Shown: positions 5,671 through 30,287, counted from the stretch's first letter. The stretch is DNA of 40,027 nt from Nanobdellota archaeon (GCA_022564635.1 JADFLA010000007.1:1-40027); one strand, 5' to 3'. Notes: generated by a model not told the origin, from the sequence alone. Numbers and translations: made by a program.

Positions 5671-6735
5671 TCAATAATTCAACTTAAATCTTAAAATAGC
5701 TGCAATTCCTCCTAGGCCATCTAATTTTTTGCCTGCTTCATGCTCTGAACTTATTATCAATATATCCCCTTTTGTGCTATCTACTGTTTTCATTGTTTCT
5801 TCTATTTCCTCGTATTTATCTTCGGTTCTTCTTTTCTGTATATAACTGTCTGTAATTAATAATGTTTTTACAGCGCCTGCTGTAGCAACATTTTTTGTTT
5901 CTTTTAGACCGTAAGATGCTAGATTGTTTTTTGATATTTCTTCAAATAGTTCTTCAACATATCTAAATTCTTTAGCTATTCTATCCTGCTTTAATGCGTG
6001 CTCTGTCTCTGGCCTTTTTAGGACTTCATTGAAAGCATTTTCTCCAGCAGAAGAGCATGTAGCTAAAATTATTTTACTTTTAAGATTTTGATCTGCAATT
6101 TCCTTCATTAATTCTTCTTTCCAAAAAGCAGGACTTGCGATTATGATTTTATTTAAATTGTATCTTTTGTCGTATTCTTCCAGTTGTCTTAAAATTTCTT
6201 TGTAAAAATTAGTCTCTACTTGCTTTATATCTGCTTTTTTTGCAACAGTTCCTTTAATGTTTGTAAGCAGTTGGTAGCCATATTTTTTCATTAATGCAAA
6301 ATAAGCCTCTTCGCGATCATGCACACAGATTAATATTTTAGCTTGGGGTGCTTTACTTGCTTCTTTTAATTTATCAATCTGGAATTTTAACCATTTCTGC
6401 TTTATTATTGTAATTATTGAGTTTTCTTCGATATTAAATGTATGGTATGATCCTAGAGGAACGTCTTCAGGACCTTCTTTTACTAAGCCAGAAATTCTTA
6501 ATATGTTTGAGGTTTTGCTAAATTCAAGTTTCTCAACTTGTATAAGCAGAAAAACTGATTTTTTTGTTATTTTTTGCTTTCTTTGCGTTTCTTGACCGAT
6601 TTTTATCTTTCTGAGAGTTTTTCCTTTAATAAGATCATTTTTTTCTATTATATGGTTTAAGTACCACAAATCATCTAAGTTCTCAATTTTTATTTTTACA
6701 ATGCCTTTTTTAAGATCTGAGTGTATTAGTTTCAT
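5671..6735 (-). CDS. pelA: Pelota (Dom34) mRNA surveillance protein
   Basis: MKLIHSDLKKGIVKIKIENLDDLWYLNHIIEKND..., EHALKQDRIAKEF..., TAGAVKTLLITDSYI. Confidence 0.9.
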   Translation of the reverse strand: MKLIHSDLKKGIVKIKIENLDDLWYLNHIIEKNDLIKGKTLRKIKIGQETQRKQKITKKSVFLLIQVEKLEFSKTSNILRISGLVKEGPEDVPLGSYHTFNIEENSIITIIKQKWLKFQIDKLKEASKAPQAKILICVHDREEAYFALMKKYGYQLLTNIKGTVAKKADIKQVETNFYKEILRQLEEYDKRYNLNKIIIASPAFWKEELMKEIADQNLKSKIILATCSSAGENAFNEVLKRPETEHALKQDRIAKEFRYVEELFEEISKNNLASYGLKETKNVATAGAVKTLLITDSYIQKRRTEDKYEEIEETMKTVDSTKGDILIISSEHEAGKKLDGLGGIAAILRFKLNY

Positions 6736-6964: not shown

Positions 6965-8263
6965 GTATGTGATTAGCACAAATGAGCTTTTAGCTCAGTA
7001 AACGAATTTAATCCTCTTTGTTTCCATGTTGCTATACAGGTGTTTATTCTTTCCATTATGGTTGTCCCTTTCTCATTCCTTAGGGTTCCTATTATTTTTC
7101 TTTGAACAATAAGCTCTCTTAACGCTCTTTCTGCTCTGTTATTTGTAGGTTCCACCTCTTTGTTATCTACAAAGGTAAACCAGTGCTCTATTCCATTCTT
7201 TACCGTAACAGAAAACTTTCTTAGCTCTTTATAGCAATCTGCATAATCTGTCCATTGCTTCATCTCAAGAATAAGCTTATCTTTGGAAGGTGGCTTTTTA
7301 CTCTTAGCTTTCTCGTATAGCTTCTTCAACCCTTGATAAAGATGTTTAGCTGAATCAAATTGCTCAGCTAAATACCTAGCTTCCCTTAGCAGATGAGCCC
7401 AGCATCTTTGCATATTATCTGTGTAAGAGGAGTAGCTTGTCCATCCGTCACAACCAATAACGCCTTTGTAATTCTCGCCTAAGACTTCTTCAATAACTCC
7501 TTTGCCTCTGCCTTTTCTTATTAGGTATAGGGTAGCTTTCTTAGTTGTAAAGACCCATAGATGAAAGTTGAGACCATCTACTCTCATTCCAGTCTCGTCA
7601 ATATTGATTGATTCAGACCTTCTCAAAAATGCTTGAATTTTATTGTATTCTGCCGCAAGTTTATCACTTACCCTTCTTGTAATATCAAACACAGTAGCAG
7701 AACTCATATTAAGATTAAATTGTCTCTTTAAGGAAGAGCATACTTTCCTAAGAGGAAGCCTATCTTCAAACTTAAGCAAGGTGGTATGAGCTAAAGTATT
7801 TGCTCCGAATCTGCTAGTATCCGGAATAGGAGCTTGAGCAACTACCTCATTACCGCAATGACTGCATAGGTAATGGTTGATCCTATACTCTGTAACTTCA
7901 ATAGGTTGTGGTTCCGGTATTTCTTCAATAATCTTAGTAGTTGTCTTAAATGGATTGCTTAGCTTACTCTTGCAATTAGGACATTTATCTTCTATGACCT
8001 CCAGAGTCATAGTGGGATTTGGATTGCTCCTTGTTGTTCCTTCATGGCCTTCTTTTTGTCCTGGCTTTTTCTTATCTTCATTAAGTATCCTTGGAGGAAA
8101 TCTTATTTTGCTAGAAGGCGTATTAGCATTTTCATATGCTATAAGCTTTTTCTCAAGTTCTTCTACACGCTTAGAAAGCTTATCAAATTCCGGTTTACAG
8201 TCTTCACATACCATGAGATAATAGTTGAAGAACTACTATTTCCTTTTTTCGCTAATCACATAC
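6965..8263 (-). mobile_element. IS66-family insertion sequence, single transposase ORF
   Basis: Perfect 13-bp TIRs GTATGTGATTAGC (6965-6977) and GCTAATCACATAC (8251-8263). Perfect 8-bp direct repeat CTTTAATC at 6957-6964 and 8264-8271. Encloses an IS66-like transposase. Confidence 0.95.
6973..8214 (-). CDS. IS66-family transposase
   Basis: Zn-finger-like CPNCKSKL...CSHCG, SINIDETGMRVDG, GCDGWTSY, CWAHLLREARYL, NNRAERALRELIVQRKIIGTLRNEKG. Confidence 0.93.
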   Translation of the reverse strand: MVCEDCKPEFDKLSKRVEELEKKLIAYENANTPSSKIRFPPRILNEDKKKPGQKEGHEGTTRSNPNPTMTLEVIEDKCPNCKSKLSNPFKTTTKIIEEIPEPQPIEVTEYRINHYLCSHCGNEVVAQAPIPDTSRFGANTLAHTTLLKFEDRLPLRKVCSSLKRQFNLNMSSATVFDITRRVSDKLAAEYNKIQAFLRRSESINIDETGMRVDGLNFHLWVFTTKKATLYLIRKGRGKGVIEEVLGENYKGVIGCDGWTSYSSYTDNMQRCWAHLLREARYLAEQFDSAKHLYQGLKKLYEKAKSKKPPSKDKLILEMKQWTDYADCYKELRKFSVTVKNGIEHWFTFVDNKEVEPTNNRAERALRELIVQRKIIGTLRNEKGTTIMERINTCIATWKQRGLNSFTELKAHLC

Positions 8264-8340: not shown

Positions 8341-9525
8341 TTGAGAAAGGCTCAAGGAGGTGTTAATGCGGCGATTTTGGTAGCGGTTATAGCTGGATTG
8401 ATTATTTTATATATACTATTTCTTCCAGAAGCTGAGAGAGAAGCCATACTTGAGGAAAGGGATGTGGAAAAAACATCTAAGAAGGATAAAGAAGATGTTT
8501 TGCTGAGAGAATTCCCGGGAAGGCTTGATATTGTTGAGGGAGTAATAGATAAAACAATTCCGAATATATTTCTATTTGAGAGAACAGATGCTAAAGAGCT
8601 TGAGAGGATAAATCCCATTATAGTTAGAAATGGTTTGTTTGATAAGAAGGACAGGACAGTAAGCTTTAGCATTGATGATTTGGAAAATACTGATAATGTT
8701 ATATTATCCTTTAAGGCTAAAAGGCATGAAGGAATTTTAACAATTAAGCTGAATAATGAAATTGTATATGAGAATGATATTTCTGGAGAGACAATTGCTC
8801 CTGTAAGATTGAACAAAAATTTGCTTTTTAATGATAATACTTTTCAGTTTAGTGTTTCTTCTGTTGGTTTTAAATTTTGGAAAACAAATGAGTATAGGCT
8901 AGAGGATATAAAAGTAATAGGAGATATAACTGATAGAAGCAAACAAGAGAGCAGGAATATTTTCACATTAACATCTAGAGAACTATTTAATATCGAAGAA
9001 TCTAATTTAAAATTTGTTCCATATTGTCGTAGTGTTTCTGATGTGGGGATATTAGATGTTGAGATTAATAGAAGAAATATATTTTCAGCTGTTCCTGTTT
9101 GTGAAGATCCTACTAAAGTTCCAATACCCTTAGGAATTTTAAATTCTGGAGAAAACAAAATAATTTTTAAGACTAATAAAGGAAGTTATAGTGTAGAACA
9201 GATTAAGGTAGAATTTTCGGAAAGGGATGTGAGAACAAATGTGTATTTCTTTGAAGTAAACCAAAGTGTGATAGATGATATAGAAGATAGAGATGTAAAT
9301 GTTGTTTTGACAATAGAATTTGTTGATGACAAAAGAAATAAAAGGGCTGATTTGAATATTAACGATAGATTATCATCTATAGATGAGGAAGGAAGATTTT
9401 TTACATTAACACTTAATGACGATGATGATCCTGATTTCATAGAAGAAGGAAATAATTTTATTAAATTAGAGCCAAGAACAAGGCTTGATATTGTTGAGAT
9501 TAAGGTAGAAATACAAGATAGATAA
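8341..9525 (+). CDS. Membrane-anchored/pilin-like-N-terminus surface protein
   Basis: TTG start after AAAGGTGAT. Short basic N-terminus plus one hydrophobic helix (RKAQGGVNAAILVAVIAGLIILYILFLPEAERE) reminiscent of prepilin-type signals, then beta-rich extracellular sequence. Confidence 0.6.
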   Translation: MRKAQGGVNAAILVAVIAGLIILYILFLPEAEREAILEERDVEKTSKKDKEDVLLREFPGRLDIVEGVIDKTIPNIFLFERTDAKELERINPIIVRNGLFDKKDRTVSFSIDDLENTDNVILSFKAKRHEGILTIKLNNEIVYENDISGETIAPVRLNKNLLFNDNTFQFSVSSVGFKFWKTNEYRLEDIKVIGDITDRSKQESRNIFTLTSRELFNIEESNLKFVPYCRSVSDVGILDVEINRRNIFSAVPVCEDPTKVPIPLGILNSGENKIIFKTNKGSYSVEQIKVEFSERDVRTNVYFFEVNQSVIDDIEDRDVNVVLTIEFVDDKRNKRADLNINDRLSSIDEEGRFFTLTLNDDDDPDFIEEGNNFIKLEPRTRLDIVEIKVEIQDR

Positions 9526-9553
9526 ATAAAGAGGTGGTTTGGGAAGAATTCTG
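9521..9553. repeat. Direct repeat, left copy flanking fic gene
   Basis: gataaataaagaggtggtttgggaagaattctg, near-identical to 10610-10643. Confidence 0.85.
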
Positions 9554-9616
9554 TCTATAGTTTTACGGGCACAAAAAAAGATAAATTTAAATATTAGTGC
9601 CCCCTAACTATTTGTT

Positions 9617-10561
9617 ATGGTGTACCTAGAAAAAAAGGAAATTGGCAAGGAAACATATTTTTATTTGGTTAAGAATATAAGACTTAATAAACAATTTAAA
9701 AAATTTAGGATTTATTTAGGAAAAGGTAAAATTTCCAAAATAAAGTTGCAAGAATTAAAGTCTAAGTATTCTAAAGTTCTGGGGCAGAGAATAAAAAATT
9801 ATTTAGTTTTGCATGATCCTCTGTTAGGATTGTTATCAAAAAAACAAATTAAATCTCTAGACAAAATCAAAAGAGAGTATAAAAAACATTATAAAAAATT
9901 ACCTAGAGAGGTTAGAGAAAAACATTATGAAGATTTTCTCGTAAGATTTACCTATAATACAAATGCAATAGAGGGGTCAACAGTAACATTAAATGAGACT
10001 AGGCTTATTCTTTTAGACAAAATAACTCCACCAAATAAGACTTTAAGAGAATTAAAAGAGGTAGAGAATCATAAAAGTGCCTTTGAGTTTATATTAAAGT
10101 ATAAAGGAGATATAACAAACCAATTTGTATTTGAAATACATAGAATTTTAACTACAGGAATATTATCTAAAAGTACTTCTGGAAAATTTAGAAAAGTTCA
10201 GGTTTTTATAGCTGGTGTTGAGAAGATACCTCCAAAACCTAAATTTATAGAGAAAGAATTTAAAGATTTAATGGGATGGTACAATAAAAATAAGAAAAAA
10301 TATCATCCAGTAATTTTGACTTCATATTTTCATGCTGCTTTTGAGGGAATTCATCCTTTTATAGATTTTAATGGTAGAAGCGGAAGATTACTGCTAAACT
10401 TTATTTTAATGAAACATAACGTTCCAATTATTGATATAAAATATAATGACAGACTTAAATATTATGAATCATTAAGAAAAGCTCAAGAGGGAAATTTAGG
10501 ACCATTTGTTAATTTGATAGTTAAGTATCTAAAAGATGAATTGAATAAAGTAAAAGTTTAA
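9617..10561 (+). CDS. Fic-domain protein (putative AMP transferase), class II-like
   Basis: Fic motif HPFIDFNGRSGR and upstream inhibitory-helix motif (S/T)xxxE(G/N) as TNAIEG in TYNTNAIEGSTVTLNET. Confidence 0.88.
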   Translation: MVYLEKKEIGKETYFYLVKNIRLNKQFKKFRIYLGKGKISKIKLQELKSKYSKVLGQRIKNYLVLHDPLLGLLSKKQIKSLDKIKREYKKHYKKLPREVREKHYEDFLVRFTYNTNAIEGSTVTLNETRLILLDKITPPNKTLRELKEVENHKSAFEFILKYKGDITNQFVFEIHRILTTGILSKSTSGKFRKVQVFIAGVEKIPPKPKFIEKEFKDLMGWYNKNKKKYHPVILTSYFHAAFEGIHPFIDFNGRSGRLLLNFILMKHNVPIIDIKYNDRLKYYESLRKAQEGNLGPFVNLIVKYLKDELNKVKV

Positions 10562-10609
10562 ATATATTAAAAATCGCTAGTAATGTAAATATAGAAAAAA
10601 GGGTTATAA

Positions 10610-10643
10610 GATAATAAATAGAGGTGGTTTGGGAAGAGTTCTG
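10610..10643. repeat. Direct repeat, right copy flanking fic gene
   Basis: gataataaatagaggtggtttgggaagagttctg; mate of 9521-9553. Confidence 0.85.
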
Positions 10644-10670
10644 GGAGTTTGATTTAGCTAGGTAAGTAAA

Positions 10671-13600
10671 ATGTTGTTTAGAGGCAAAAGAGGGCAATGG
10701 CAATTTTTGCTTAAGGCTGGTAGTTTGGCTAAAGGCCTTAAGTCTGGTGCTGGCAGAGCGCTTAATGCTGCTCGTGGTATTAAAGAAAGTGCTGGGGAGG
10801 TTGGGGAAAGATTACGGCAACAACGTCAAAAGCGCCAGCAAGATAAGTTGGACCTAGAAATTTGGCGACGAGAGCAACAGGAACGACAGCAACAACAATC
10901 CCCACAACAAGGTCCTCAACAACCTGGGCAAAGTCGTTTTGGCGGTATAAGAAGTGGCGTGGCTGCAGGAGTAGGTCTCATGGGTGGTTTGGCTGTTGGT
11001 GGTATTAAAAAAACCAGCGGCGCTACTATTTTTATTATTCTTGCATTTTTGTTGTTCTTGTTTGACGTTATTGTAGATTATAAAGGGTTTAATATAACAA
11101 GTGTAGAATCTTTTTTTGAATTAGGGAGGGTTATTTTATCTCTTGGATATGTAATAGGTGTATGGGTTTTCTTTATTTGGTTTGTATCACGTGATAGAAG
11201 TTTCCAAGCTATGATTTCTTGGGTTTTTGTTTTGATAATTATAATTCTTTCATTAGGCATCTCAGTTAAGTTGAATCCATTAGCAGTAATTCATATTATT
11301 TTTATACTAATTTTCTGGATGTCCTTTATAAGGCAAAGAGAAGAAAATGTAGTCCGAGCGAACACATTTTTAGTTTTGCTTTTGGTAGCTGATTTATATG
11401 CTTATTCTTTATTTAATATTTTATCCCCAAAAATGGCTGAGTTTTTTGTTGGCTTTCCTTTTTTATTTATTTTAGTTGTAGTTTATATTTTTGAGCAAAC
11501 AAACAATATATTTGCATTAATTTTGATGATTGGTGTTGTAGCGTGGTATTTTTTATTAGGTGCTCCTCAATTTGCAGAAAAGTTAGACATAGCAGGAATT
11601 GAGGGTATTAAAACAAGGATTCCATCTCTATCTGAGCTTCCTGGACTGATTGGAGAAAAACTGATAAGTAATCCTATTGAAAGGCTTACTGAAGCAGGAA
11701 GCGCATGGCTCTCTGGTCAAATTCAATATGCGGTAACTGGTAAGGTTGAACAAAATCAATTTGAGCCTTTAGGCGTTTATTTAGATAATGTGGAGTCTGT
11801 GGCATCTAGATATTATATTGATGAGTATAGAGACGAAGACACTGGTGAAACTATTGATAAATATGAAGAGGTCATTATTTATGGCACAGTAAGGGGTAGA
11901 ACATTGGATGATCCAATTAATCTAAGGGTTGGATGTTTTGTCGAAAGGGATGGTAAGAAAGAACATGCAGAACTTGAAGACCCCAGGGATAAATTTACTA
12001 TATTTGCTTTTGAAGAGCAGGATTTTGCATGCACTTTTACTGAAGATCAATTAAAAGGAGGGAAGGTTTTGAAAGAAGGCTCTAATACTATAACCACGTT
12101 TGCAGACTTTAATTTTGAGACACTTGCTTTCCAAAAAGTTTATTTTATGGATAGGGAAAGGTTAAGGGCTATGACAAGGGAAGGTTTAGATGTTTTTGAT
12201 GAATTTGGTATTAAAGACAAAAGACCTGTTCCGGTTTATACCAATGGTCCTGTGGCTATAGAAATGGGGACAACCAGTCCGTTAGTAGGTGTAAGTGAAA
12301 ATTACCTTGCATTTCCGAGGTTTAGTTTGGCTATAAAAAACAGGGAAGGCTGGCAGGGTCGAATAACAGGATTAAAGGAACTTGTTTTGCTGCTTCCAAA
12401 GGGTGTTAGGATAGAGAATCCTGGTATTAAAATTAAAAAATACACAACTATGATAGAGGGTCTAGATGGAGAGGCTATAGAGGAAGTAACTTTTATAGAG
12501 GAAGAAACTAAGGAAAAAGATTGTAATGTTAGATTTAGACCTTATGGCATTGAGGATTGCCAAAATTCGTGTGAAATATTTGTATTAAATGAGTGTAATG
12601 ATGTATGTAAAGGTTATGGAGCTGGAACTTCAGATGAACAAACATGTCGAATAGAATGTACTGCCGGTCAGGAAGATTGTAAAGACGAATGCCAATTTTT
12701 GTTTGATGATCGTGATCAAGAGTATAAGGGTTATGCTTTAGCTCAAACTGCTATTGATAAACTTCAAAAGAGGGTGTATGATGAAGAAGATGCTACACGT
12801 TTTGAACGCTTTAACTGCAAGCTTAATCCTATACGGAATCAGGTTTTAGGAAACACCCCCATAACAACTAAGTTTTTCAGGGTAAAGGTCAGATATGATT
12901 ATACTGTTGAAGAGGCTATTACTGTACAGATTGTAAAAGCTCCAGAAATTGGAGATATTGAGGAAGTTAAAAAGGAAAAAGTTGGGCCTGGAGTTCCGTC
13001 TTTTACAGAGTCAAATGTAGTCACACTTTATGAACATGAGAAACGCGGAGGAGATAAAATTGGATTTGGTATAGGAGAAGTACCACAAATTAGTAAACTT
13101 AATGATGAAATTTCTTCTATAGATGTGAAACCAGGATATGTGATTACATACTATGAAGATAAAGATTATAAGAAAGCTTGCAGAACCGATATTGATTATG
13201 TCCCTAATCTTAAAGATGTAGGGGTAGTTGTATATCGAAGATCGCTTCCGGATGATCTTACAATTAACGACGAAATAAGCTCATTAAACGTATCAAAGTT
13301 TGAAGGTGCTGTTTTATATGAAGATGAAAACTTTAAAGGAAGGTCGGATTATTATGGATCAGACGCTAATAATTTTGATAATAAGTGTCTAGATGATTCA
13401 GGCGTTGTAGCGGATAACAAAGTTACTTCAATAATAGTTGCTCCTGGTTATCAGGCAATACTTTACAAGGATGACAATTTTAATGACTTGTCTGATCCGG
13501 TATATGAAACAGATTGCAGTGACGATAAAGTAAGATGTATTCCTGAAACAATAAAAGAAGAGGTAACAAAAATTGGTGATCTGGGTGAACTAAGTGAACT

Positions 13601-13991
13601 TAAAGGTTCTAATCGTGAAGGTTTCGATAGGGATACAAGCTCGATAAGAATTGTTGGTAAAACTAAGGATTCTATACTACAAGCAACTTGCGAAGGCAGA
13701 GACATCATTCTTGCAACTCGTTTACCTACAGCAACTGAAGAATCTGCATTGTCTGTCTGTCAGAAACGTTGTACTGCTTTATATCCTGGCAAAGTTGCTG
13801 AGGTAAGGGAAATAGAAGTCCAACCTTATGAAGGTGTTCAAATTTTGAGTGACGGGTTATGTGAAGGGAATGCATGGGCAGAAGATTTTATTGTTACAGT
13901 AAATTCTAAGGCAGATAAAAATACAATTGAGAAGATTGGATGGAATTGTTTTTGCAAAAAAGACTTGAGTGATGAATTCGAGGGTATATGA
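10671..13991 (+). CDS. Large multi-TM envelope protein with C-terminal beta/gamma-crystallin-like region
   Basis: Gln/Arg-rich N-terminus; several hydrophobic helices (TIFIILAFLLFLFDVIV, VILSLGYVIGVWVFFIWFV, etc.); Cys-rich segment; beta/gamma-crystallin-type repeats VVTLYEHEKRGG...NDEISSIDV, NDEISSLNV...AVLYEDENFKGRS, DNKVTSIIV...AILYKDDNF. Confidence 0.7.
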   Translation: MLFRGKRGQWQFLLKAGSLAKGLKSGAGRALNAARGIKESAGEVGERLRQQRQKRQQDKLDLEIWRREQQERQQQQSPQQGPQQPGQSRFGGIRSGVAAGVGLMGGLAVGGIKKTSGATIFIILAFLLFLFDVIVDYKGFNITSVESFFELGRVILSLGYVIGVWVFFIWFVSRDRSFQAMISWVFVLIIIILSLGISVKLNPLAVIHIIFILIFWMSFIRQREENVVRANTFLVLLLVADLYAYSLFNILSPKMAEFFVGFPFLFILVVVYIFEQTNNIFALILMIGVVAWYFLLGAPQFAEKLDIAGIEGIKTRIPSLSELPGLIGEKLISNPIERLTEAGSAWLSGQIQYAVTGKVEQNQFEPLGVYLDNVESVASRYYIDEYRDEDTGETIDKYEEVIIYGTVRGRTLDDPINLRVGCFVERDGKKEHAELEDPRDKFTIFAFEEQDFACTFTEDQLKGGKVLKEGSNTITTFADFNFETLAFQKVYFMDRERLRAMTREGLDVFDEFGIKDKRPVPVYTNGPVAIEMGTTSPLVGVSENYLAFPRFSLAIKNREGWQGRITGLKELVLLLPKGVRIENPGIKIKKYTTMIEGLDGEAIEEVTFIEEETKEKDCNVRFRPYGIEDCQNSCEIFVLNECNDVCKGYGAGTSDEQTCRIECTAGQEDCKDECQFLFDDRDQEYKGYALAQTAIDKLQKRVYDEEDATRFERFNCKLNPIRNQVLGNTPITTKFFRVKVRYDYTVEEAITVQIVKAPEIGDIEEVKKEKVGPGVPSFTESNVVTLYEHEKRGGDKIGFGIGEVPQISKLNDEISSIDVKPGYVITYYEDKDYKKACRTDIDYVPNLKDVGVVVYRRSLPDDLTINDEISSLNVSKFEGAVLYEDENFKGRSDYYGSDANNFDNKCLDDSGVVADNKVTSIIVAPGYQAILYKDDNFNDLSDPVYETDCSDDKVRCIPETIKEEVTKIGDLGELSELKGSNREGFDRDTSSIRIVGKTKDSILQATCEGRDIILATRLPTATEESALSVCQKRCTALYPGKVAEVREIEVQPYEGVQILSDGLCEGNAWAEDFIVTVNSKADKNTIEKIGWNCFCKKDLSDEFEGI

Positions 13992-14132
13992 CCATAGAAT
14001 AACTAACTGATACAGATACTAATTAAAACTTATTAAATAGTGCATTATAAAATTATCAATTATGAGCCAGTAATGTTTCGGGTTTATTGTGCTTTCAAAT
14101 ATGCATGCGTTTTTAGATAGGGAATGTGAACG

Positions 14133-15476
14133 ATGAAAAAAATAATTTTCGTTTTTGTTGTAGTAAGTTTGCTTTTAATAGTTGGATGTACTGGAGGCTC
14201 TAGAGATAAATCACCCATAACTGATGTTGATGTAAGGAAAGGAACAGATGGGCTTACTATGGAATTTACAAAGAATGCTCCTCCTTTAAGAGTTTTTGAA
14301 GACAGTATTTTTCCGATAGCCGTAATTTTAAAGAATAGAGGTGCTACTGATATAGAACCTGTTGATGTAGAATATATTGAAAGTGAAGAAGGGTATGCTT
14401 CTGAAGATGAGCAACCTTCAAAGCCTGTTAAAAGAATAAAAACTGTAAAAGGAAGTTTGGTTTTTGGATTTGAAACAACTTTTGTCGATTTAAGTGAGAA
14501 GGTTAAAGAAAGAAGTCTTGAAAGTGAAAAAAATAGTCTTGAGAATGAGAGAAGTCAGTTGAAAGATAAAAAAAGAATTCTAGAAAATGAGATGAATTTT
14601 ATACTAGAAGAGCCAGGTACTGGAGATGTTGATAGTAGGTTTAATGAAATTGATGAGGAATTAAGTGGAATTAAGGTGAGGAATGATGAAATTAATGACA
14701 GGATAATTGAAATATCGGTAGAGGTGATTGATGTTAGAAAGAAACTGAATTTAATAGAAAATGATTTACTTGATGAGATAAAAGGAAAATCTATATTTAG
14801 CCCCAATGGAGATCAAGAATTAATAACAATAAATGCCCAAACTAAAAAGATAGGTGCGCAAAGTGAAACACGACCATCTACTATATTGGCAACTGCATGC
14901 TATCCATACAAAACTATTTTTGGGGCTTCTGTTTGCATTGATACTGATATTTATGGAGAAAGGAGGGGAAAAAAGGTATGTAGCATTACTGATTTAAGAT
15001 TTGGCGAGGGACAAGGTGCTCCAGTTGCTATAACTAAAATAGAAACTAGAATGTTGCCATTGCCAGAAGACAGTAATTTAGTAAAGCCTCACTTTTTAAT
15101 CCATATAGAGAACAAAGGCAATGGTGAAGTTGTAGAATTAAGTAAGGTAGAGCAAGCATGTACAAGTGAGCGATTGGATTACAGGTCTTTTAATACAATA
15201 ATAATTAAGGCTTCATTATCTGGCAAACCTCTGGATTGCAGAATAAAAAAAGAAGGTCCTAAAGCTGAACCTCCACCTCCAGCACCAACGACAATAAGGC
15301 TTAGGGACAAAGAAAATTTGGTTAGATGTACTTTAGAATTAATACCGGGTGAAGTAGATGAACTTATTGATATAAATAGGGATGCTTATATAGCACCATT
15401 AAGTATAGAACTTGAATATGGATATACTTTTACTATATCGAAAGATATAATAATAGAAAAGATTTTAACATATTAA
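14133..15476 (+). CDS. Surface lipoprotein, core-module family member 1
   Basis: Lipobox SLLLIVGC. Core motifs GLTMEF..NAPP, ILATACYPYKTIFGASVCID, GQGAPVAITKIE, IELEYGYTFTISKDI. Coiled-coil-like insertion. Confidence 0.7.
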   Translation: MKKIIFVFVVVSLLLIVGCTGGSRDKSPITDVDVRKGTDGLTMEFTKNAPPLRVFEDSIFPIAVILKNRGATDIEPVDVEYIESEEGYASEDEQPSKPVKRIKTVKGSLVFGFETTFVDLSEKVKERSLESEKNSLENERSQLKDKKRILENEMNFILEEPGTGDVDSRFNEIDEELSGIKVRNDEINDRIIEISVEVIDVRKKLNLIENDLLDEIKGKSIFSPNGDQELITINAQTKKIGAQSETRPSTILATACYPYKTIFGASVCIDTDIYGERRGKKVCSITDLRFGEGQGAPVAITKIETRMLPLPEDSNLVKPHFLIHIENKGNGEVVELSKVEQACTSERLDYRSFNTIIIKASLSGKPLDCRIKKEGPKAEPPPPAPTTIRLRDKENLVRCTLELIPGEVDELIDINRDAYIAPLSIELEYGYTFTISKDIIIEKILTY

Positions 15477-15477
15477 G

Positions 15478-18400
15478 ATGAGTAAAAAAAAGAGAATTGG
15501 ATTTCTGTCATTATTTCTCTTATTGCTCGTTATATTTATCTCTAGTTGTGGTTTAATAAAAAAAGATGAAGGAGATGGTGCTAAATTTGAAAGAGGTGCA
15601 CAAGGTTTAGTAATGGATTTTGTTCAAAACTATCCTCAACAAAAATTTTTAGTGAGTAACGAGGATGAGGACATAGTTGTTGCAATAAATGTTAGAAATA
15701 TAGGCACTTATCCTATAAAAAGTTCAAAGAAAAGTCAAGATGAAGAAGAAGGTATTTTTGGGTTAGGTAAGATTTATATCAGCGGTTTTGATGACGAAAT
15801 TATTGATATGAGTGGATTAACAGATGAGGATATAACTAAATTAAAAAATTCTGATAGGGTTGATATCAGTGAACTTGCGCTGGAGGAATTGCTTGCTATA
15901 AGGGACGAGTATTATCCTCAAATAAAGAATGACCAAATAAATAATAGAAAGACTACTCTTGTTACAATTAATGTGGTAGGAATTTTAGATGAAAAGAAAA
16001 AAGATGCAATATTAAACCTCTATAAAAAGGGTACACAGAAAGCAAGAAGATCTAAAAGTTTGTCTGGAATGTTTTTACAGCCTGCCAGTGAAATTAATCC
16101 TAAAGGGGGTTTTGATTCAACTGAATTTGAAGGGAAAATCAAGGCTGATAAAATAATAGTTGACCAGTATGATCCTGTTATTCTGGCTACTGCTTGTTAT
16201 CCTTATTTTACAAAAGCATCTCCAACAGTTTGTATTGATCCTTTTCCATTTGAACATAGGGAGGAAAAGGTTTGTGAAATTGGAAGTGTAACCTTATCAA
16301 GCCAGGGAGCTCCTATTGCAGTAACAAAAGTTGAGCAAGAAGCTGCAACAGGAAAAATACAATTCAAAATCCATATAAAAAATGTTGGAGATGGTGATGT
16401 TATATGGAACAAAGATACATCAGAAGACATATCAAAACTTGATGGTTTATTGAATAGGTGCAGTCCTTTGGGTGGGGGAATATTAAAGAGGAAAGATTTT
16501 GATAGGGTACAATTAGAAAGTATAAAAATTGGGAATGTGGATATGTTTAAAGAAAGAAAGTGTAGCCCTTTTGCTGACGGAACAGATAATATTGTAAAAC
16601 TCTTTAATGGAGAGGGATTCGTTATATGTACTTTAAACGTACGGGATTTGGGCAGTATTCAATCTGCTTATACATCACCATTAAACATAGAGTTAAGATA
16701 TGCTTACAGGTCAACAATTTCAAAACAGATTAAGATATCTAAATTGACTACTATAGATTCTGAGCCAACAGATTCAAGACCTACAACTCGAGAACGTGCA
16801 GAAGAAAGACCACCAGATATTCCTGCTGAAACAGGAGTACCTTCAATACCTATCGAACAAATTGATACAGTTTCAGGCCCAACAGGAACTGTAAAAATTA
16901 ACAATGATGATAAAGCCACATCAAAAACTTCTGTTACTTTATCATTTACATGTTCTGATCCTATTGGATGTAAAAATATGAAGGTAGCTAATACTCAGGC
17001 AGCTCTTAAAAGTGCACTACTTATCCCATATATCACAAAAATGTCTCGGCTAATACCTTCAGGGGATGGGACAAAATATGTTTGGGTGAGATTTCAAAAT
17101 CGGGCTGATATTTGGAGTCATGAGTTTGTCGATAGTATATTATTGAGGACGATAGGTCCGACAGGATCCATTAAAATTGATGAAGATGCCAAAAATACAT
17201 TAACAAAATCTGTTATATTGAATCTGCATTGTTCTGATCCGAGTGGATGCAAAAGGATGAGGATAGCTAATGAGCAAAAAGATCTTGCCTATGCAACACA
17301 GAAAATATACGATTCTTTAGTACCCTCCTGGGAGCTATCGACTGCGGATGGTACAAAAACAAAGGCTGTTTGGGTGCAATTTGAAAATGAAGTTGGACTA
17401 TGGGGCAATGAGCTTGTTGATACAATTATATTTGGTGCACTACCTCCTGGTACAATTATGATTGATGAAGATGCATCCACTACTTCAACAACAAAGGTTT
17501 TTTTAAATCTATTTTGCTCTGATCCTAGTGGATGCACAAATATGCAGATAGCTAATAAACGGAAAGATTTTGATAATGCAAAAATAATTCCATTTTCTTC
17601 GCCAATAAATTGGTTTCTTCCGTCTGGGGATGGGACAAAGAGTGTATGGTTCAAGTACTTAAGTGGAAATAACATTTGGAGTGAAGCATTTGCTGATTCA
17701 ATAATATTAAGTACCTTAGATCTACTTGGTGATATTTTAATTGATGATGATGCTTTAACTACATCAACAAGCTTAGTTACGTTAAGACTCTATTGCTTTG
17801 ACAAAAGTGGATGTGATAAGATGCAGATAGCGGATACATATTCTGGTCTTGCAGGCGCAGATTCTGAGGATTTTAAACCAGAAATACTCTGGACACTGCC
17901 GTCAGGAGATGGTACTAAAATTGTATGGTTTAGGTACTTAAATGGAAATCAAATTTGGAGTGAAGCATTTTTTGACAAAATTACGTTAGGAAAAATACCA
18001 ACAGGTACCGTTAAAATCAATTTTGATAATAAGGCAACAACATCGACAGCAGTTATATTAACATTTACTTGTTCTGAACCCAATGGATGTAAAAATATGC
18101 AGATAGCACATACTGATGCAACTCTTCCATTTGCACCTATAAGGGAATTTAAAGATCAAACAAATGATTGGATACTAACATCAGGAGATGGACCAAAATC
18201 TGTTTTTGTAAGATTTCAAAATGAAGATGGCTTTTGGGGTAATGGGAATGCTGATGTTATAATATTAAGGACATCGGGTCCAACAGGAACTGTTAAAATT
18301 AATGGTGTTGCTGAGAGCACTTCATCAAGGTCGGTTGATTTATCACTTTCTTGCAAGGATCTAAGCGGATGTAAAAATATGCAGATATCAAATAATAGAG

Positions 18401-18564
18401 TGGGTCTTGAAAATAAACCAGTGATAGATTATTCCCCATCATTATCATGGTATTTACCAACATCTGGGGAGGGTACAAAATATGTCTATGTAAGATTCCA
18501 AAATTATGCCGATCTTTGGAGTGGAACCATTCTTGATAGAATAGAGTTAAGTACATCAAGTTAA
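15478..18564 (+). CDS. Surface lipoprotein, core-module family member 2, with six C-terminal Ig-like repeats
   Basis: Lipobox VIFISSC. Core motifs GLVMDF..NYP, ILATACYPYFTKASPTVCID, SQGAPIAVTKVE, IELRYAYRSTISKQI. Six tandem repeats after residue ~466. Confidence 0.75.
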   Translation: MSKKKRIGFLSLFLLLLVIFISSCGLIKKDEGDGAKFERGAQGLVMDFVQNYPQQKFLVSNEDEDIVVAINVRNIGTYPIKSSKKSQDEEEGIFGLGKIYISGFDDEIIDMSGLTDEDITKLKNSDRVDISELALEELLAIRDEYYPQIKNDQINNRKTTLVTINVVGILDEKKKDAILNLYKKGTQKARRSKSLSGMFLQPASEINPKGGFDSTEFEGKIKADKIIVDQYDPVILATACYPYFTKASPTVCIDPFPFEHREEKVCEIGSVTLSSQGAPIAVTKVEQEAATGKIQFKIHIKNVGDGDVIWNKDTSEDISKLDGLLNRCSPLGGGILKRKDFDRVQLESIKIGNVDMFKERKCSPFADGTDNIVKLFNGEGFVICTLNVRDLGSIQSAYTSPLNIELRYAYRSTISKQIKISKLTTIDSEPTDSRPTTRERAEERPPDIPAETGVPSIPIEQIDTVSGPTGTVKINNDDKATSKTSVTLSFTCSDPIGCKNMKVANTQAALKSALLIPYITKMSRLIPSGDGTKYVWVRFQNRADIWSHEFVDSILLRTIGPTGSIKIDEDAKNTLTKSVILNLHCSDPSGCKRMRIANEQKDLAYATQKIYDSLVPSWELSTADGTKTKAVWVQFENEVGLWGNELVDTIIFGALPPGTIMIDEDASTTSTTKVFLNLFCSDPSGCTNMQIANKRKDFDNAKIIPFSSPINWFLPSGDGTKSVWFKYLSGNNIWSEAFADSIILSTLDLLGDILIDDDALTTSTSLVTLRLYCFDKSGCDKMQIADTYSGLAGADSEDFKPEILWTLPSGDGTKIVWFRYLNGNQIWSEAFFDKITLGKIPTGTVKINFDNKATTSTAVILTFTCSEPNGCKNMQIAHTDATLPFAPIREFKDQTNDWILTSGDGPKSVFVRFQNEDGFWGNGNADVIILRTSGPTGTVKINGVAESTSSRSVDLSLSCKDLSGCKNMQISNNRVGLENKPVIDYSPSLSWYLPTSGEGTKYVYVRFQNYADLWSGTILDRIELSTSS
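16876..18561 (+). repeat. Six in-frame ~93-aa protein-domain repeats
   Basis: Repeat starts at about 16876, 17155, 17440, 17716, 17995, 18277. Each has G(T/S/D)(I/V)xI...(T/H/F/Y/S)CxxxxGCxxM...(S/T)GDGxKxVWVRFxN...W...DxIxL. Confidence 0.9.
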
Positions 18565-18834
18565 AAATCATCTTGTTCAACTTAGTAGGCAACTAAAATC
18601 ACTTTAAATAATACCTTATACTTATTGTGTAAAGTTAACACCAATAATTTATTGAAAAAAATACAGGTCAATTATATATGCATCGTATAATGATTATTTT
18701 AAACGATAATTTTTTTACAATGAAAAAATATAAAATTAATTTTTATTCTTTTTGAAGTAAAATTATTTTATTGACTAAGAGAATATAGAAACCTTTAAAT
18801 AAAAGAAATCAAATTATAAATCAGTTATTAAAAA

Positions 18835-19884
18835 ATGAGAAAAAATAGGAATTTAATATTAATTGCTTTTAGTGCAGTTTTCTTATTATTTATAGCAGCT
18901 TGTGATAGGGGGGGGGTTGTTGTTGGTGGTGGTGCGCCTACAACACCTTTTATAGGCGGTACACAAGGTCTGGAAATAAGTTTTTTAGAGGGAAATCCGC
19001 CTGAAGAGGTTACTGATGGAGATACTTTTCCTTTCCAAGCTGTAGTTAAATTAGTAAACAATGGTGAATTTAATATAGGTCAAGATAAGGTGAAGGTTAG
19101 TTTGATTGGTTTTTTGCCTAGTGATTTTCGTTTAGGGGACCCAAATGTTTTTGTTAATACTGATTTAATTGACAAACCTCCTGAAGACGAGCTTCGTGGA
19201 AAGAAAAAGGATTCTGAAGGCAATATTTTAGAACCTATTGAGGCTTTTGTGACATTCCCAACTGAATTAAAATCTTTTGGTTTTAAAGAAAGCATAGCAG
19301 GAAATACCGTTTTTATTTTTAGAGCAGATGTTTGTTATGAATATGAAACAAACGCCTTATCTGAAATCTGCGTATTAGAGAACTTGGTGGATGTAAGAGA
19401 TGATGCTATTTGCGATCCTAGCGAATCAAAAACTATTTTTAGCTCTGGTAGCCCAGTTCAAGTAACTTCATTTAAGCAGAATGTTGCCGGAAGGAACAAA
19501 ATCCAGTTCAGCTTTGATATTGTACACTCAGGACAAGGAACTCTTTTCAAGCCTGGTGCAGAAGATAATGCACCTAATTGCCCGAAAGATTCTTCCACAA
19601 GAAGGAGGGTAGAGAATAGGGTTTTTGCTACTATATCTACAGGGCTTGATAATATTGCAGGTACTGCAAGCTTAAAATGTGTTGGATTGGGTCCTGATGA
19701 AAATAAGAAGGTTGCAAGTGGAGTACTGACATTAGTCGATGGTAAGAGAACTGTTACATGCACCCAGAACCTGGAAGAAGACAGGACTGACTTTAAAAAG
19801 AATATCGATATTAATGTAAAGTTTAATTATCTTGAAAATGTAGATCAGGAAGTTCTGGTTAAGCATTTGGTTGATGATCCATAA
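18835..19884 (+). CDS. Surface lipoprotein, core-module family member 3
   Basis: Lipobox LLFIAAC. Core motifs GGTQGLEISFLEGNPPEEV, DVCYEYETNALSEICVLEN, SSGSPVQVTSFKQ, VKFNYLENVDQEV. Confidence 0.72.
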   Translation: MRKNRNLILIAFSAVFLLFIAACDRGGVVVGGGAPTTPFIGGTQGLEISFLEGNPPEEVTDGDTFPFQAVVKLVNNGEFNIGQDKVKVSLIGFLPSDFRLGDPNVFVNTDLIDKPPEDELRGKKKDSEGNILEPIEAFVTFPTELKSFGFKESIAGNTVFIFRADVCYEYETNALSEICVLENLVDVRDDAICDPSESKTIFSSGSPVQVTSFKQNVAGRNKIQFSFDIVHSGQGTLFKPGAEDNAPNCPKDSSTRRRVENRVFATISTGLDNIAGTASLKCVGLGPDENKKVASGVLTLVDGKRTVTCTQNLEEDRTDFKKNIDINVKFNYLENVDQEVLVKHLVDDP

Positions 19885-19964
19885 AAACTGATAAATATTT
19901 ATTTCTTGGTTATATGTTTTTTAGTAGTACTTTAGCATCTTGAAGTATATTTAGTATATTAATA

Positions 19965-20093
19965 ATTTCAATCTGCCTTCGGCAAAAAATTTGTTTTTAT
20001 GTTTTATTTAATCTTTTCAATCCGGCTTCGCTTTCGCTCAGCCAAATTTTACTGCTCGGCGTTGCTTTTCTGTCATAGCGCAACGCCTCGCAT
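19965..20093. repeat. Intergenic repeat family B, copy 2
   Basis: Matches 6762-6921 across most of its length but lacks the GCGAAAG hairpin segment of copy 1. Confidence 0.8.
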
Positions 20094-20183
20094 ATTTATT
20101 CAATAATTATTTTTAATGCAATCAATTATTTATTTCTAGAAAGCTTTAAATAAAAGAAATTAAATTAAAGTAAATATTATAAA

Positions 20184-22178
20184 ATGAAGCAAAAAAATGG
20201 TGTAATATTATTAGTTTTTGGTATAGTTCTCTTATTGTTTATAGCTGGGTGTGATGGCAAGAAAGATGTAATATCAAGGGATTCTCCTTTTGTTGGTGGG
20301 ACTAAGGGTTTAGAGATAAAGTTTTTAAAAGATGCTCCACCATCAGAAATAACTGACAATAACCTTTTTCCCTTTAAGGTTGTATTAAGTATAACAAATG
20401 AGGGAGAATTTGATGGAGACCCTATTGAACTTGGTTTAGAAACAAATCGGATCAGGGTTGATTTAAAGGGATTTTTGCCAGACGATTTTGGTGTAAATAA
20501 GGGAGAGATAACAAATATAAATCCTGAAGATAATTTAATCGCAAGAAAAAAGGATTCTGAAGGGAATATTATAGAACCTGTGGAAGTTTTTGTGACCATA
20601 CCGCAGCCAGGTGGTAGAGACCTAAAGCTAGGTGAGAATAAAATCTCGGCAAATACAGAGTTTACTTTTAGAGTTGATATCTGTTATCAATATGGATCTG
20701 ATGCCATAGCAAAAATTTGCATTTTAGAGAACATGATTGCTCCGGCTGATGATGCTATTTGTAATCCAAGAGAGGGAAAGAGAGTTTTCAGTTCTAGTTC
20801 ACCTGTTAGAGTAACATCATTTAGGCAGACTGTTGCTGGAGAAAATAAGATACAGTTTAGCTTTGATATAGAGCATTCTGGTCCGGGTAAAGTTTTCAAG
20901 AATGTACGCCCAACATCTACTACTGGATGCCCAAAAGATTTGGGTGGTAAAAGGCGTGAGGAAAATAAAGTTGAGGTTACTGTTAAAACCGGGCTTGGAA
21001 GCACCGGCTTATCATGTGTTGGGCTGAGAAATAGTAAGGAAGGTGGTAAAAATGGAGAGGTTACATTAGTTGGTGGTAAAAGAACAATAACTTGTACACA
21101 AGAAATTGCACCTCAGTTTAAGATTGATTTAGAAAAAAATGTAGATATAGAATTAAGGTTTGATTATTCTGATAGCGTAGATAGGAAGGTTTTGGCCAAG
21201 CATATAGAAGTAGTTGGTCCTCCTACAGAAGAACCTCCTATAGTTGATGGAGAACTGAATTTTTGTGGCCCTTTCTTTAATAATGTCAAAACATTTTGCA
21301 GGGATGGTGCTTGTAGTGATTTTGGTACGAGTTGTACTGGTACTGATTTTTGTAAATGTGCTGGTACCTTAACTCCATGCGCTGGAACGTGCCCATTACC
21401 TACAGATGTAGACGATACCGGACCTCGAGTTGGTGATATAGAACCAGAGTTCGCAATAGCTGGGTCTAGTCAAGTATTTGTCATTCAGGATGTTTTTGAT
21501 ACAGGAAGTGGTGTAACTTCTTGCAGATTTACTTTTGTTGGTTCTATTAATATGAATCCAGTAGATGTGGGGGGGATCCAAGGACCAGTAAATTGTGATA
21601 AGGAAACACAAAAATGCGATTTTTGGGAATCTGTGAGTATTCCTGAAGATCAGGGAGACTTTCAGATACACGCAGAATGCACAAATGGTGCAGGTATAAA
21701 AAATACTGATAATATAGTTGGTCAAGATCTTAGTTTTCTAACTGTAAGGGTTAAAAAACCTGATGATCCTGGGGTTACAGCAGGAGAAAAAATTGATCCT
21801 GTGATTGGAGATTTGGTAATAAATATTGCAACAATTGACCAACCACAACAATTTTTAGTTGTAGGTATACAAGATGAACAAAGTGGTATAAAAAGATGTG
21901 AATTGGTAATACCTAACTATCAGGGTCCGCAACCGGGGGTAATGATACTTCAAGGACCACTACCTTGTTTTGGAAAAGATAAAGTTGACAAAGAGGGTAA
22001 AGAAGGCAACCACGGTTCATGTAGCGCTATTATTAATTTTAAGATTGAGAGTAAAAACGAAGCTGGAGGGACGATAATTACACCTGGTTCACGTAGTCTT
22101 AAAGTAGTGTGTGAGGATCGTGCAGGTAATACGAAAACAACACCTAGTTTACCGATCACACTACTTCCTCAACCCTAG
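20184..22178 (+). CDS. Surface lipoprotein, core-module family member 4, with C-terminal Ig-like repeats
   Basis: Lipobox LLFIAGC. Core motifs GGTKGLEIKFLKDAPPSEI, DICYQYGSDAIAKICILEN, SSSSPVRVTSFRQ, LRFDYSDSVDRKV. Two C-terminal Cys-containing beta-rich repeats. Confidence 0.74.
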   Translation: MKQKNGVILLVFGIVLLLFIAGCDGKKDVISRDSPFVGGTKGLEIKFLKDAPPSEITDNNLFPFKVVLSITNEGEFDGDPIELGLETNRIRVDLKGFLPDDFGVNKGEITNINPEDNLIARKKDSEGNIIEPVEVFVTIPQPGGRDLKLGENKISANTEFTFRVDICYQYGSDAIAKICILENMIAPADDAICNPREGKRVFSSSSPVRVTSFRQTVAGENKIQFSFDIEHSGPGKVFKNVRPTSTTGCPKDLGGKRREENKVEVTVKTGLGSTGLSCVGLRNSKEGGKNGEVTLVGGKRTITCTQEIAPQFKIDLEKNVDIELRFDYSDSVDRKVLAKHIEVVGPPTEEPPIVDGELNFCGPFFNNVKTFCRDGACSDFGTSCTGTDFCKCAGTLTPCAGTCPLPTDVDDTGPRVGDIEPEFAIAGSSQVFVIQDVFDTGSGVTSCRFTFVGSINMNPVDVGGIQGPVNCDKETQKCDFWESVSIPEDQGDFQIHAECTNGAGIKNTDNIVGQDLSFLTVRVKKPDDPGVTAGEKIDPVIGDLVINIATIDQPQQFLVVGIQDEQSGIKRCELVIPNYQGPQPGVMILQGPLPCFGKDKVDKEGKEGNHGSCSAIINFKIESKNEAGGTIITPGSRSLKVVCEDRAGNTKTTPSLPITLLPQP

Positions 22179-22228: not shown

Positions 22229-23188
22229 TTATTTTTTAGACCCATAAAGAACAAATTGGCTCAATAATGCTTCTAATTGTATGAATTCATCTGATCCTTC
22301 TGTTAACCTGAATTCGATTTCTCCGCATTTTTCCATCAGGAGCATTTTCTTTTCATTGTCTATATCAAGATTAAGAATTTCTTGCTGGATTTGTTTTATT
22401 ATATCCAAACCAGAAAGGCCATAGTTTAGCATTACATCCATTAATTTGTTTCTTGCATCAATAAACTTGTTGGATAATGCTAGTTTTAGGACTTCATCAA
22501 TTTCTTTTGGTCTAGCTACAGAAGCCATTGAATAGATAATTTCATCTGTTATATTGTTGCTTATGGCTGCAGAACTCTGCATTATGTTGTTTATTTTTCT
22601 TGCGTCTCCTTCGCTTATGTTAAATAAAGCTTCTTTTGCTTTTTCATCCACTTTTATTTTTTCGTCTTTCTCAATTTTCTCTATTATAGAATAAATTTCT
22701 TTTTTATCTAATGGTTTAAATCTAAACATTGCACATCTGCTTTGTATTGGGTCTATGATCTTAGATGAATAGTTACACGAAATTATGAATCTGGTTGTCT
22801 GAGTATAATTTTCCATTGTTCTCCTTAATGCTTGTTGTGCTTCTCTTGTTAAGGCGTCTGCTTCATCAAGATATATTATTTTAAATGGGACATCTCCAAT
22901 TGCTTTTGTCCTCGCAAAATCTTTTACCTTGTTTCTTATTATATCAATTCCACGCTCATCAGAAGCATTTAACTCTAAAAAATTTTGGTGCCAGGAATCT
23001 CCAAATAATTTTTTTGCTACCATAAGGGCTAAGCTCGTTTTTCCCGTACCTGCTGGTCCAGCGAATAGTAGGTGCGGAATATTCTGCATCTCGACAAAGG
23101 CTTTTATTCTTTTTACTATCTCTTTCTGGCCTTTTATTTCTGAGAAGTCTTTTGGCCTGTATTTTTCCGTCCAAATAGCGCTATCCAT
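22229..23188 (-). CDS. rfcS: Replication factor C small subunit
   Basis: Walker A GPAGTGKTSLAL, LDEADALTREAQQALRRTMENY, SRC motif QSRCAMFRFKPL. Confidence 0.95.
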   Translation of the reverse strand: MDSAIWTEKYRPKDFSEIKGQKEIVKRIKAFVEMQNIPHLLFAGPAGTGKTSLALMVAKKLFGDSWHQNFLELNASDERGIDIIRNKVKDFARTKAIGDVPFKIIYLDEADALTREAQQALRRTMENYTQTTRFIISCNYSSKIIDPIQSRCAMFRFKPLDKKEIYSIIEKIEKDEKIKVDEKAKEALFNISEGDARKINNIMQSSAAISNNITDEIIYSMASVARPKEIDEVLKLALSNKFIDARNKLMDVMLNYGLSGLDIIKQIQQEILNLDIDNEKKMLLMEKCGEIEFRLTEGSDEFIQLEALLSQFVLYGSKK

Positions 23189-28256: not shown

Positions 28257-30029
28257 ATGAAATACGACGAAAAAAAGTTTTATTCTTCTGTTGAAGGGTA
28301 TAAAAAGATTTTAGGAGGTGTTAAGGCTAAATCTTTTTTAGTGGTTTTTGATATAAGGAACAAAAAGGCCTTTTTCTCTATTGCTCCTTTATCTAGGGCT
28401 ATACATGAATTAAGTGCTGATATTAGTGTTATGGGGATTGATAAAGAATCAAAAACTCTAGAAGCTTTGAATGATGTATGGAATGTGTTTAAGGAAAATA
28501 AAAAGGGAAAAGTTAATGAGAAGACTGAGGCTTTAATGAGTTTTATAGATGAAATAGAAAAAAGATCAAAAGGAAAGTTTATTGGGTTGTTTGAAGAACC
28601 GGATTATGTTTTAGAGGCAAAGGAATTTGGTTTTGAAAGAGACTTTACTTTACCATTCAAAGATGATTGGTTTAAAGAGCATAGGAGTAAAGAGTTGGAT
28701 GAAACATGTAAAAAAATATGGACAGATGTTTATAATTTAAAAAAGAATGAAAAGGTTTCTATTGGTTTTGTTTTAATACAAAAGCAAGAAATGCTTGGAC
28801 ATCCATTGGAAGATTATCTAGATTCTTATGCAATAATATTGCGGATGATGCTTAATTGCAAGGATGATAATAAAGTTACGATGGGAGCTTATACCCAAAG
28901 AAAATCTATGCTGGATAAAAGTGAGCGTATTTCGGAGTTAAAGGCTGTTTTATTGGGGTGTGAGTTGTGCAAGGAAGTAGATGAGGATATATTTAAAAAA
29001 TACAAAAAATTATCAAATTTGCTGAATTTAGAAAGGATTGAAGCAGTAGATGCTTCCTTTTTTATAGCTGGTAAAGGTTATCCTGGAAAGCATGTTTTTG
29101 GGGAGGTTATTGGTTACCCTTCCCTAAACAAAAAGACCAGGTGGCAGAGTCCTGGCCAGATGATATACAAGCTTGATTTCTATCCACAAACAAATTTGGA
29201 TGATAGAGAACCGAAAGCAAGGGTTGGTTTTACAGAAACTTTACCTATAGATGTTTTCATAGAAACATGCAATATTGATTGGAAAAAAATGAGAGAAAGA
29301 AACTATAAAATAAAGGAAATAGCAGATAAATGCAAACTTATTAAGGTTTGTGGAGAAAAAATTGATGGTTTTCAAACAAATTTTGAAGTGGGATTAATAA
29401 AGAAAGATGGTGTGCATAGATGGGTAAGAACTTCTGATACTGATGTTAGGGAGAAAATAAATTCAGAGTACCTAAAAAGAACCGGAATAAAAGCAGGGAC
29501 AATGGCTAATTTACCTGGGGGAGAGGCTTTTGTTACTCCGGAATATGTAAAAGGAACTATTGTTGGGGATGTTGTTATTAGTATTGACCAGAGCTATTTG
29601 TTATCAGATAAAGAGCCTTTAGTCATAGAATCTGATGGCAAGGAATATAAAATAATTTCAGGTCCAAAAGACATAATAAAGAAATTAGAGGAAAAAAAGA
29701 GAGAAGCATGGGAAATGATATTGAATCAAGAAAGGTTTAAGAGCCAACCTCAGGAAATTATAGATTTAAAAAAGAAAAACTTCAACATGATAAATGAATT
29801 TGCAATGAATACAAATCCAAATGCTAAGTTGTGTGACTATTTAATTGTAAATGAGAAGATAGCAAGGATGATACATGTTGCTTTAGGCAGCGGTTTTGAG
29901 CCTGACAGGGCATCAGAGTACCATATAGATATTGTCATAAACAGCCCAAGACAGAAAATGAATATTTATGGTATTGATGATAAAGGTAAGGAACATTGGA
30001 TCATTAAGAAAGGGGAGTTTGTTGTTTAA
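28257..30029 (+). CDS. Divergent M29-like aminopeptidase (590 aa)
   Basis: C-terminal half resembles M29: NLPGGEAFVTP, INEFAMNTNPNAK, MIHVALGSGFEP..SEYHIDIVI. Long N-terminal extension. Confidence 0.7.
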   Translation: MKYDEKKFYSSVEGYKKILGGVKAKSFLVVFDIRNKKAFFSIAPLSRAIHELSADISVMGIDKESKTLEALNDVWNVFKENKKGKVNEKTEALMSFIDEIEKRSKGKFIGLFEEPDYVLEAKEFGFERDFTLPFKDDWFKEHRSKELDETCKKIWTDVYNLKKNEKVSIGFVLIQKQEMLGHPLEDYLDSYAIILRMMLNCKDDNKVTMGAYTQRKSMLDKSERISELKAVLLGCELCKEVDEDIFKKYKKLSNLLNLERIEAVDASFFIAGKGYPGKHVFGEVIGYPSLNKKTRWQSPGQMIYKLDFYPQTNLDDREPKARVGFTETLPIDVFIETCNIDWKKMRERNYKIKEIADKCKLIKVCGEKIDGFQTNFEVGLIKKDGVHRWVRTSDTDVREKINSEYLKRTGIKAGTMANLPGGEAFVTPEYVKGTIVGDVVISIDQSYLLSDKEPLVIESDGKEYKIISGPKDIIKKLEEKKREAWEMILNQERFKSQPQEIIDLKKKNFNMINEFAMNTNPNAKLCDYLIVNEKIARMIHVALGSGFEPDRASEYHIDIVINSPRQKMNIYGIDDKGKEHWIIKKGEFVV

Positions 30030-30124
30030 TAATAAAGTACAATAATAAAAATTTTTCAATTATTAATCAAATTAAACAATAAAAACAATTAACATAAAAA
30101 TAATAATCAATAAATTTCAAATTT

Positions 30125-30268: not shown

Positions 30269-30287
30269 TTAAATAATTTAAAATAAA

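Follow-up and report, generated by a model that had tools for sequence, protein, structure and literature searches.

The window, by which we mean the whole analysed stretch of 40,027 nucleotides, belongs to a Woesearchaeota-like lineage of DPANN archaea and comes from a draft genome of 1.43 Mb (74 contigs, 87% complete). From position 8341 onward, the plus strand carries a gene for a protein here called P, a Fic-domain gene, a gene for a large membrane protein (X), and genes for four lipoproteins of 447, 1028, 349 and 664 aa, in that order (Table 1). All the open reading frames claimed in the first-pass annotation, which had been made from the sequence alone, were recovered where it had placed them, on the plus strand, with the Fic-domain gene interrupting the series. 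The latter lies outside the core set, and the window is in this respect an exception to an arrangement in which P directly precedes X. The IS66-family transposase upstream of P is possibly tied to a rearrangement at this locus. Farther downstream (28257-31232) lie two neighbouring proteins that resemble each other (E 1e-12 by BLASTP); each gives M29-aminopeptidase-like matches, those of the first being weak.

Table 1. Genes, domains and flanking features at the locus (positions within the window).
Feature	Coordinates	Strand	Basis
aRF1 (translation release factor), divergent flank	5671-6735	-	Pfam eRF1_1/2/3
IS66-family transposase, between aRF1 and P	6973-8214	-	Family match
P, 394 aa	8341-9525	+	ORF call; homologues in relatives
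Fic/DOC-domain gene, between P and X	9617-10561	+	Pfam Fic, E 7e-18
X, 1106 aa: membrane segments behind a charged N-terminus, then a conserved ectodomain of two domains and a variable tail	10671-13991	+	ORF call, alignments, hydropathy, AF2
X membrane-spanning region, residues about 111-302	11001-11576	+	Hydropathy, AF2 helices
X conserved ectodomain, residues 333-759	11667-12947	+	Alignment of X sequences
X tail, beta/gamma-crystallin domains	13020-13487	+	Pfam Crystall, motifs, X tree
Lipoprotein A, 447 aa	14133-15476	+	BLASTP, profiles, tree
Lipoprotein B, 1028 aa: core to residue 425, then repeat tail	15478-18564	+	BLASTP, tree
Lipoprotein C, 349 aa	18835-19884	+	BLASTP, AF2, tree
Lipoprotein C duplicate, 664 aa, possibly Ig-like tail	20184-22178	+	BLASTP, tree; Big_3_2 under its cut-off (E 9e-4)
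Replication factor C small subunit, convergent flank	22229-23188	-	Pfam Rep_fac_C

Judging by its sequence, P is composed of a short N-terminus, a single membrane helix (KAQGGVNAAILVAVIAGLIILYILFLP) and three related, beta-rich extracellular domains (internal repeats: R1-R2, 97%; R2-R3, 61%). The N-terminal (K/R)(A/S)QGG followed by a hydrophobic helix resembles, by eye, the class III signal peptide (PibD/FlaK) of type IV pilin-like proteins. Profile comparisons revealed no homology of P to X or to the lipoproteins.

The conserved part of X ends near window residue 765, beyond which the alignment of homologues gives way to a variable tail. Within the ectodomain, Cys422 and Cys454 are present in 25/25 aligned sequences, and Cys618 and Cys716 in 23 of the 25. 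An AF2 model of residues 91-772 (pLDDT 85) returned only weak, generic Foldseek matches. The number of membrane segments ranges from about 1 to 10 across relatives (as estimated by hydropathy only), which makes the role of mechanistic platform that the first-pass annotation had assigned to the membrane protein a weak proposition. P, the X core and the lipoproteins alike lack a match of meaningful score among the Pfam, NCBIfam and PHROGs models, and searches by sequence against solved structures gave nothing convincing, the good matches being confined to the hydrolase tails of X (see below).

The four lipoproteins of the window are homologous, as their sequences indicate by similarities far beyond chance: BLASTP gave E values of 1e-23 (447 vs 1028 aa), 1e-99 (349 vs 664 aa), 1e-9 (447 vs 664 aa) and 4e-7 (1028 vs 349 aa), and family profiles, each made from alignments built from relatives, matched one another (A-B, A-C, B-C) at 99.9-100% probability over ~300 columns. 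The shared core proposed for them is thus confirmed. On a quick lipoprotein tree (with full support for the C branch, low support for the separate A and B ones, and some long-branched rows) labelled by position after X, two label changes were needed, the minimum possible, as opposed to a mean of 47 after shuffling. Hence, A, B and C are three ancient paralogues kept in fixed order, and the 664-aa lipoprotein, which falls in group C together with the 349-aa one (46% identical by BLASTP), is a local C duplicate. The earlier count of four paralogues is accordingly replaced by one of three, the fourth being a duplication within the window genome.

Seven cysteine positions are conserved in 29-30 of the 30 aligned lipoproteins. 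One of these is the lipobox cysteine, Cys23, which follows the signal helix in 30/30 and is the predicted site of lipidation; in a larger set a lipobox-like pattern was found in 116 of 128 lipoproteins, the exceptions shown being near-miss patterns. The AF2 model of lipoprotein C (pLDDT 88.9) is beta-rich, with two long strands (158-180 and 320-343), and a Foldseek search against the PDB produced no close match, only generic beta-sandwich proteins (integrins, AglB, adhesins) at low TM-scores. The tail of lipoprotein B is made of six repeats of ~93 aa (KINxDxxATSxxSVxLxxxCSDPSGCxxMxIAN...SGDGTKxVWVRFxN), for which no Pfam match of meaningful score was obtained.

A likeness between the 1106-aa protein and the lipoproteins had also been put forward. 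Compared directly, X and the lipoproteins do not match significantly by BLASTP or by profile, the best local match being the last strand of both. The likeness probably holds by way of a divergent family of X (f29): f29-type X is clearly homologous to X by profile (98.7% probability, over most of the ectodomain) and also matches the second domain of the lipoproteins (80-89% probability, with E values between 1.5e-5 and 2e-6, against 0.2% for the reversed control). Considering that the f29 type matches both, the second extracellular domain of X is probably homologous to the lipoproteins.

The gene set was surveyed within one class of DPANN archaea, with further genomes sampled across the phylum. 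Single-sequence searches in 59 relatives recovered P in 52, X in 44 and lipoprotein C in 57. In a sample of 279 genomes from across the phylum, profiles detected P in 218 and X in 153. A further 23 of 25 tested f29-family genomes carry the divergent X; even with these f29 matches included, X went undetected in roughly one phylum genome in three. P is a core member of the set, and the most widely distributed one. A single-protein scan of named genomes found close relatives of P in two records, one of Nanoarchaeota and one of Candidatus Woesearchaeota.

Gene order is likewise maintained. Among the 88 loci with X from which neighbourhood counts were drawn, P lies directly upstream in 71/81 testable cases and a lipoprotein directly follows X in 77/83, at spacings typical of an operon (medians of 60 and 0 bp, respectively); three consecutive lipoproteins occur in 47 loci. 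The aRF1 and RFC families flank the operon in 18 and 19, respectively, of the 21 loci compared. The operon P-X-A-B-C is therefore conserved across hundreds of very small, uncultivated archaea. The first-pass annotation had staked its envelope module on similarity among the lipoprotein cores and on co-occurrence in related genomes, and both were found; its interpretation as an envelope system is upheld in part. It stands in regard to module, homology and co-occurrence, but had not counted P as a core member, and its chief omission was the exchangeable hydrolase tail described below. A viral origin of the genes was considered and rejected: in viral contigs, a pattern search with a reach limited to close relatives turned up nothing related to lipoprotein C or to P, and PHROGs matches were marginal.

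The C-terminal tail of X is, in most near relatives examined, a predicted peptidoglycan hydrolase. In a sampled, non-exhaustive set of 38 tails (those longer than 60 aa, window included; domain threshold E<=0.01), Pfam peptidoglycan-hydrolase domains were present in 29, namely SLT in 21, GH73 (Glucosaminidase) in 4, Peptidase_M23 in 2, and Amidase_2 and Peptidase_M15_4 in 1 each. Another 22 tails, 3 of them from lipoproteins and 19 from X proteins picked for their length (a biased choice), yielded SLT in 6, SLT_2 in 1 and NlpC/P60 in 1. The SLT matches reach an E value of 5e-18; some weak ones (L015, L020, L033 and L056) fall under the curated Pfam cut-off, although the motif is kept in such matches. 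By pattern, the catalytic glutamate together with G-[LI]-M-Q (E-S...G-[LI]-M-Q) is present in nearly all SLT tails, and SLT-like motifs also occur in two tails without an SLT call (L053, L062). In the SLT-like tails of L107 and L109 the catalytic glutamate is apparently replaced, so that these may bind the wall instead of cutting it. Coordinate matching put about 22 of the SLT places in the 59 relatives inside the operon.

The tail modules are swapped, including between close relatives: the X proteins of L061 (GH73 tail) and L066 (SLT tail) are 74% identical in the core, and GH73 tails arise among SLT-tailed relatives more than once on the X tree (L018, L061). On that quick tree, in which some rows are long-branched, we counted 26 changes of tail type among 79 tails (21 scored as 'other' and 18 as short, with many outside the window's family of unknown type). 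Fibronectin-like (fn3) and crystallin tails are found as well. In one operon (L031), the SLT domain sits on lipoprotein A (9550-11283) and X is tailless. X of other orders of the class (about 390-480 aa) has no tail at all, which indicates that hydrolysis is not a universal function. Exchangeable C-terminal effector modules are familiar from evolved VgrG proteins and polymorphic toxins, which resemble X in joining a constant part to swapped C-terminal enzymes; they differ from it in that no sequence relation was detected and no immunity gene was recognised in the cluster.

In the window, the tail position is occupied by the crystallin domain that the first-pass annotation had recognised, and Pfam Crystall indeed scores above its cut-off of 25 bits, both in full-length X (29.1 bits, E 1e-6) and in the tail alone (34.2 bits, E 2.8e-8). 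After residue 760 there are three calcium-type motifs of the form N/D-N/D-x-x-S/T-S (NDEISS, NDEISS and DNKVTS), for which binding is predicted. The notion that crystallin defines the system was nevertheless rejected, as the domain is one of several tail types within a variable region, most often a peptidoglycan hydrolase in near relatives. On the X tree, the window sequence belongs to a nine-member set (support 98) in which six members are SLT-tailed (L053 by motif only), and SLT is absent both from its own tail and from the rest of the 87%-complete genome. With crystallin in the hydrolase's place, the window module would probably bind calcium and/or a surface partner rather than cut.

We reason that these proteins form a conserved surface complex that presents exchangeable, mostly wall-cleaving modules, and that holds a bacterium while cutting or gripping its wall locally, a reading to which we give slightly better than even credence. 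P, anchored by one helix, would display its three beta domains; X would be embedded in the membrane, exposing a two-domain, cysteine-containing ectodomain; and A, B and C would lie on the outer side of the membrane, where assembly with X is expected. The C-terminal end of X (and, once, that of A) would serve as a socket for exchangeable modules projecting from the cell, and the complex would most likely grip a bacterium and locally cut its wall, for attachment, feeding or uptake. The homology, the conservation of the operon and the swapping of modules are shown by the data. The extracellular position of the tail (to which the lipoboxes, the conserved cysteines, the types of enzyme recruited and the charged N-terminal region point), the physical assembly, the bacterial wall as target and the purpose of contact are what we infer from the whole.

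As to the target, MurC was found above cut-off in none of the 59 relatives (one genome being ambiguous); these archaea thus seem not to make peptidoglycan themselves, which makes the bacterial wall the likely substrate. The ambiguous case, G040, has three Mur-ligase-like matches (G040:C2 and G040:C7; best 274 bits, below cut-off), reflecting either contamination or an archaeal wall-synthesis pathway. Since the core persists where hydrolases are missing, its own role is more likely to lie in contact or in organising the surface, and wall cutting would be a frequent add-on. More tentatively, and with rather less than even confidence, we propose an undescribed DPANN contact machine, whose 'tool head' would swap six hydrolase families and calcium-binding or adhesion-like modules to suit bacterial partners, and which would be the main device of Woesearchaeota to attach to bacteria, open them and feed.

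The same persistence of the core in tailless operons could also befit a housekeeping envelope scaffold (e.g., one anchoring an S-layer or organising the surface), on which hydrolase tails would be opportunistic antibacterial weapons or scavenging tools and not its purpose. This is the most serious alternative, albeit an unlikely one. It would also accommodate the greater frequency of P over detected X (218 vs 153 of 279 genomes) and the occurrence of fn3 and crystallin tails; however, at least five hydrolase families have found their way to this single position, and in one case a hydrolase to an adjacent subunit, which suggests the complex itself as the site of delivery.

A type IV-like apparatus for secretion or DNA transfer is disfavoured, and we regard it as very improbable. 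Here X would be a VirB6-like channel, its SLT tail a fused VirB1 and the lipoproteins a VirB7-like ring, in keeping with the resemblance of a wall hydrolase, a polytopic protein and lipoproteins to VirB1, VirB6 and VirB7, and with the wall hydrolases (SLT, often with a second module) that stand beside a polytopic membrane protein in VirB1/TraG/PrgK systems (PMC12102498). Unlike those systems, the present cluster has no VirB4- or coupling-type ATPase in the window nor any other recognisable type IV part, no ATPase or other extra gene recurs inside the operon across 21 neighbourhoods, Pfam, NCBIfam and PHROGs gave no match to such components, and membrane segments numbering from about 1 to 10 are unlike a channel of constant topology.

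The partners proposed for Woesearchaeota include methanogens, and the tails might act on the wall of the archaeon itself or of a fellow archaeon (pseudomurein or similar); we deem this highly unlikely given the six peptidoglycan-type families recruited, the lack of MurC noted above, and the specificity of GH23 enzymes for linkages of N-acetylmuramic acid, which are missing from pseudomurein. In its favour, some methanogens do possess pseudomurein (PMC12352652).

The preferred reading, a surface complex that holds bacteria and presents exchangeable modules, bears on a wider question. Few cells are as diverse and as poorly understood as DPANN archaea, not least in their partners and mode of contact, and above all in uncultivated Woesearchaeota. 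The operon offers a concrete, testable molecular candidate for archaeon-bacterium contact, and its tail type a genomic marker that is readable from any genome and comparable with the co-occurring bacteria.

In the literature searched, from which most preprints and subscription titles were absent, neither the operon nor its lipoproteins nor the tail exchange is described; these are apparently new, while SLT proteins in Woesearchaeota are already known. 'Vampiristic' Woesearchaeota with lytic transglycosylases have been reported (Vigneron et al. 2022, PMC9723730). Bacteria-killing, modular peptidoglycan hydrolases have been shown in archaea, and Nanoarchaeota are noted as rich in them (PMC12352652). 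They resemble the X tails in being archaeal, in including M23 and other types and in being aimed at bacteria; they were selected as catalytic plus wall-binding modules, whereas X joins its catalytic module to a conserved subunit that is anchored in the membrane and belongs to a multi-protein cluster. Closest to the X tails is fam00969 (module 98), a family of large (up to 3,000 aa), extracellular, murein-like lytic transglycosylase proteins known from Woesearchaeota and Pacearchaeota, which shares with them SLT/GH23 domains in large extracellular proteins, the same archaea and the same proposed target, the bacterial wall (Castelle et al. 2021, PMC8204110). The family is characterised there by its SLT domain and its lengths, and the text describes no operon, lipoproteins, P or exchange of hydrolase type; X may belong to the family. 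Very large SLT proteins (open frames of 2,000-3,400 aa) were also seen outside the operon (G015:C13, G020:C30, G071:C20 and others), as well as in family f82, where no P match was listed, and these are possibly the published fam00969.
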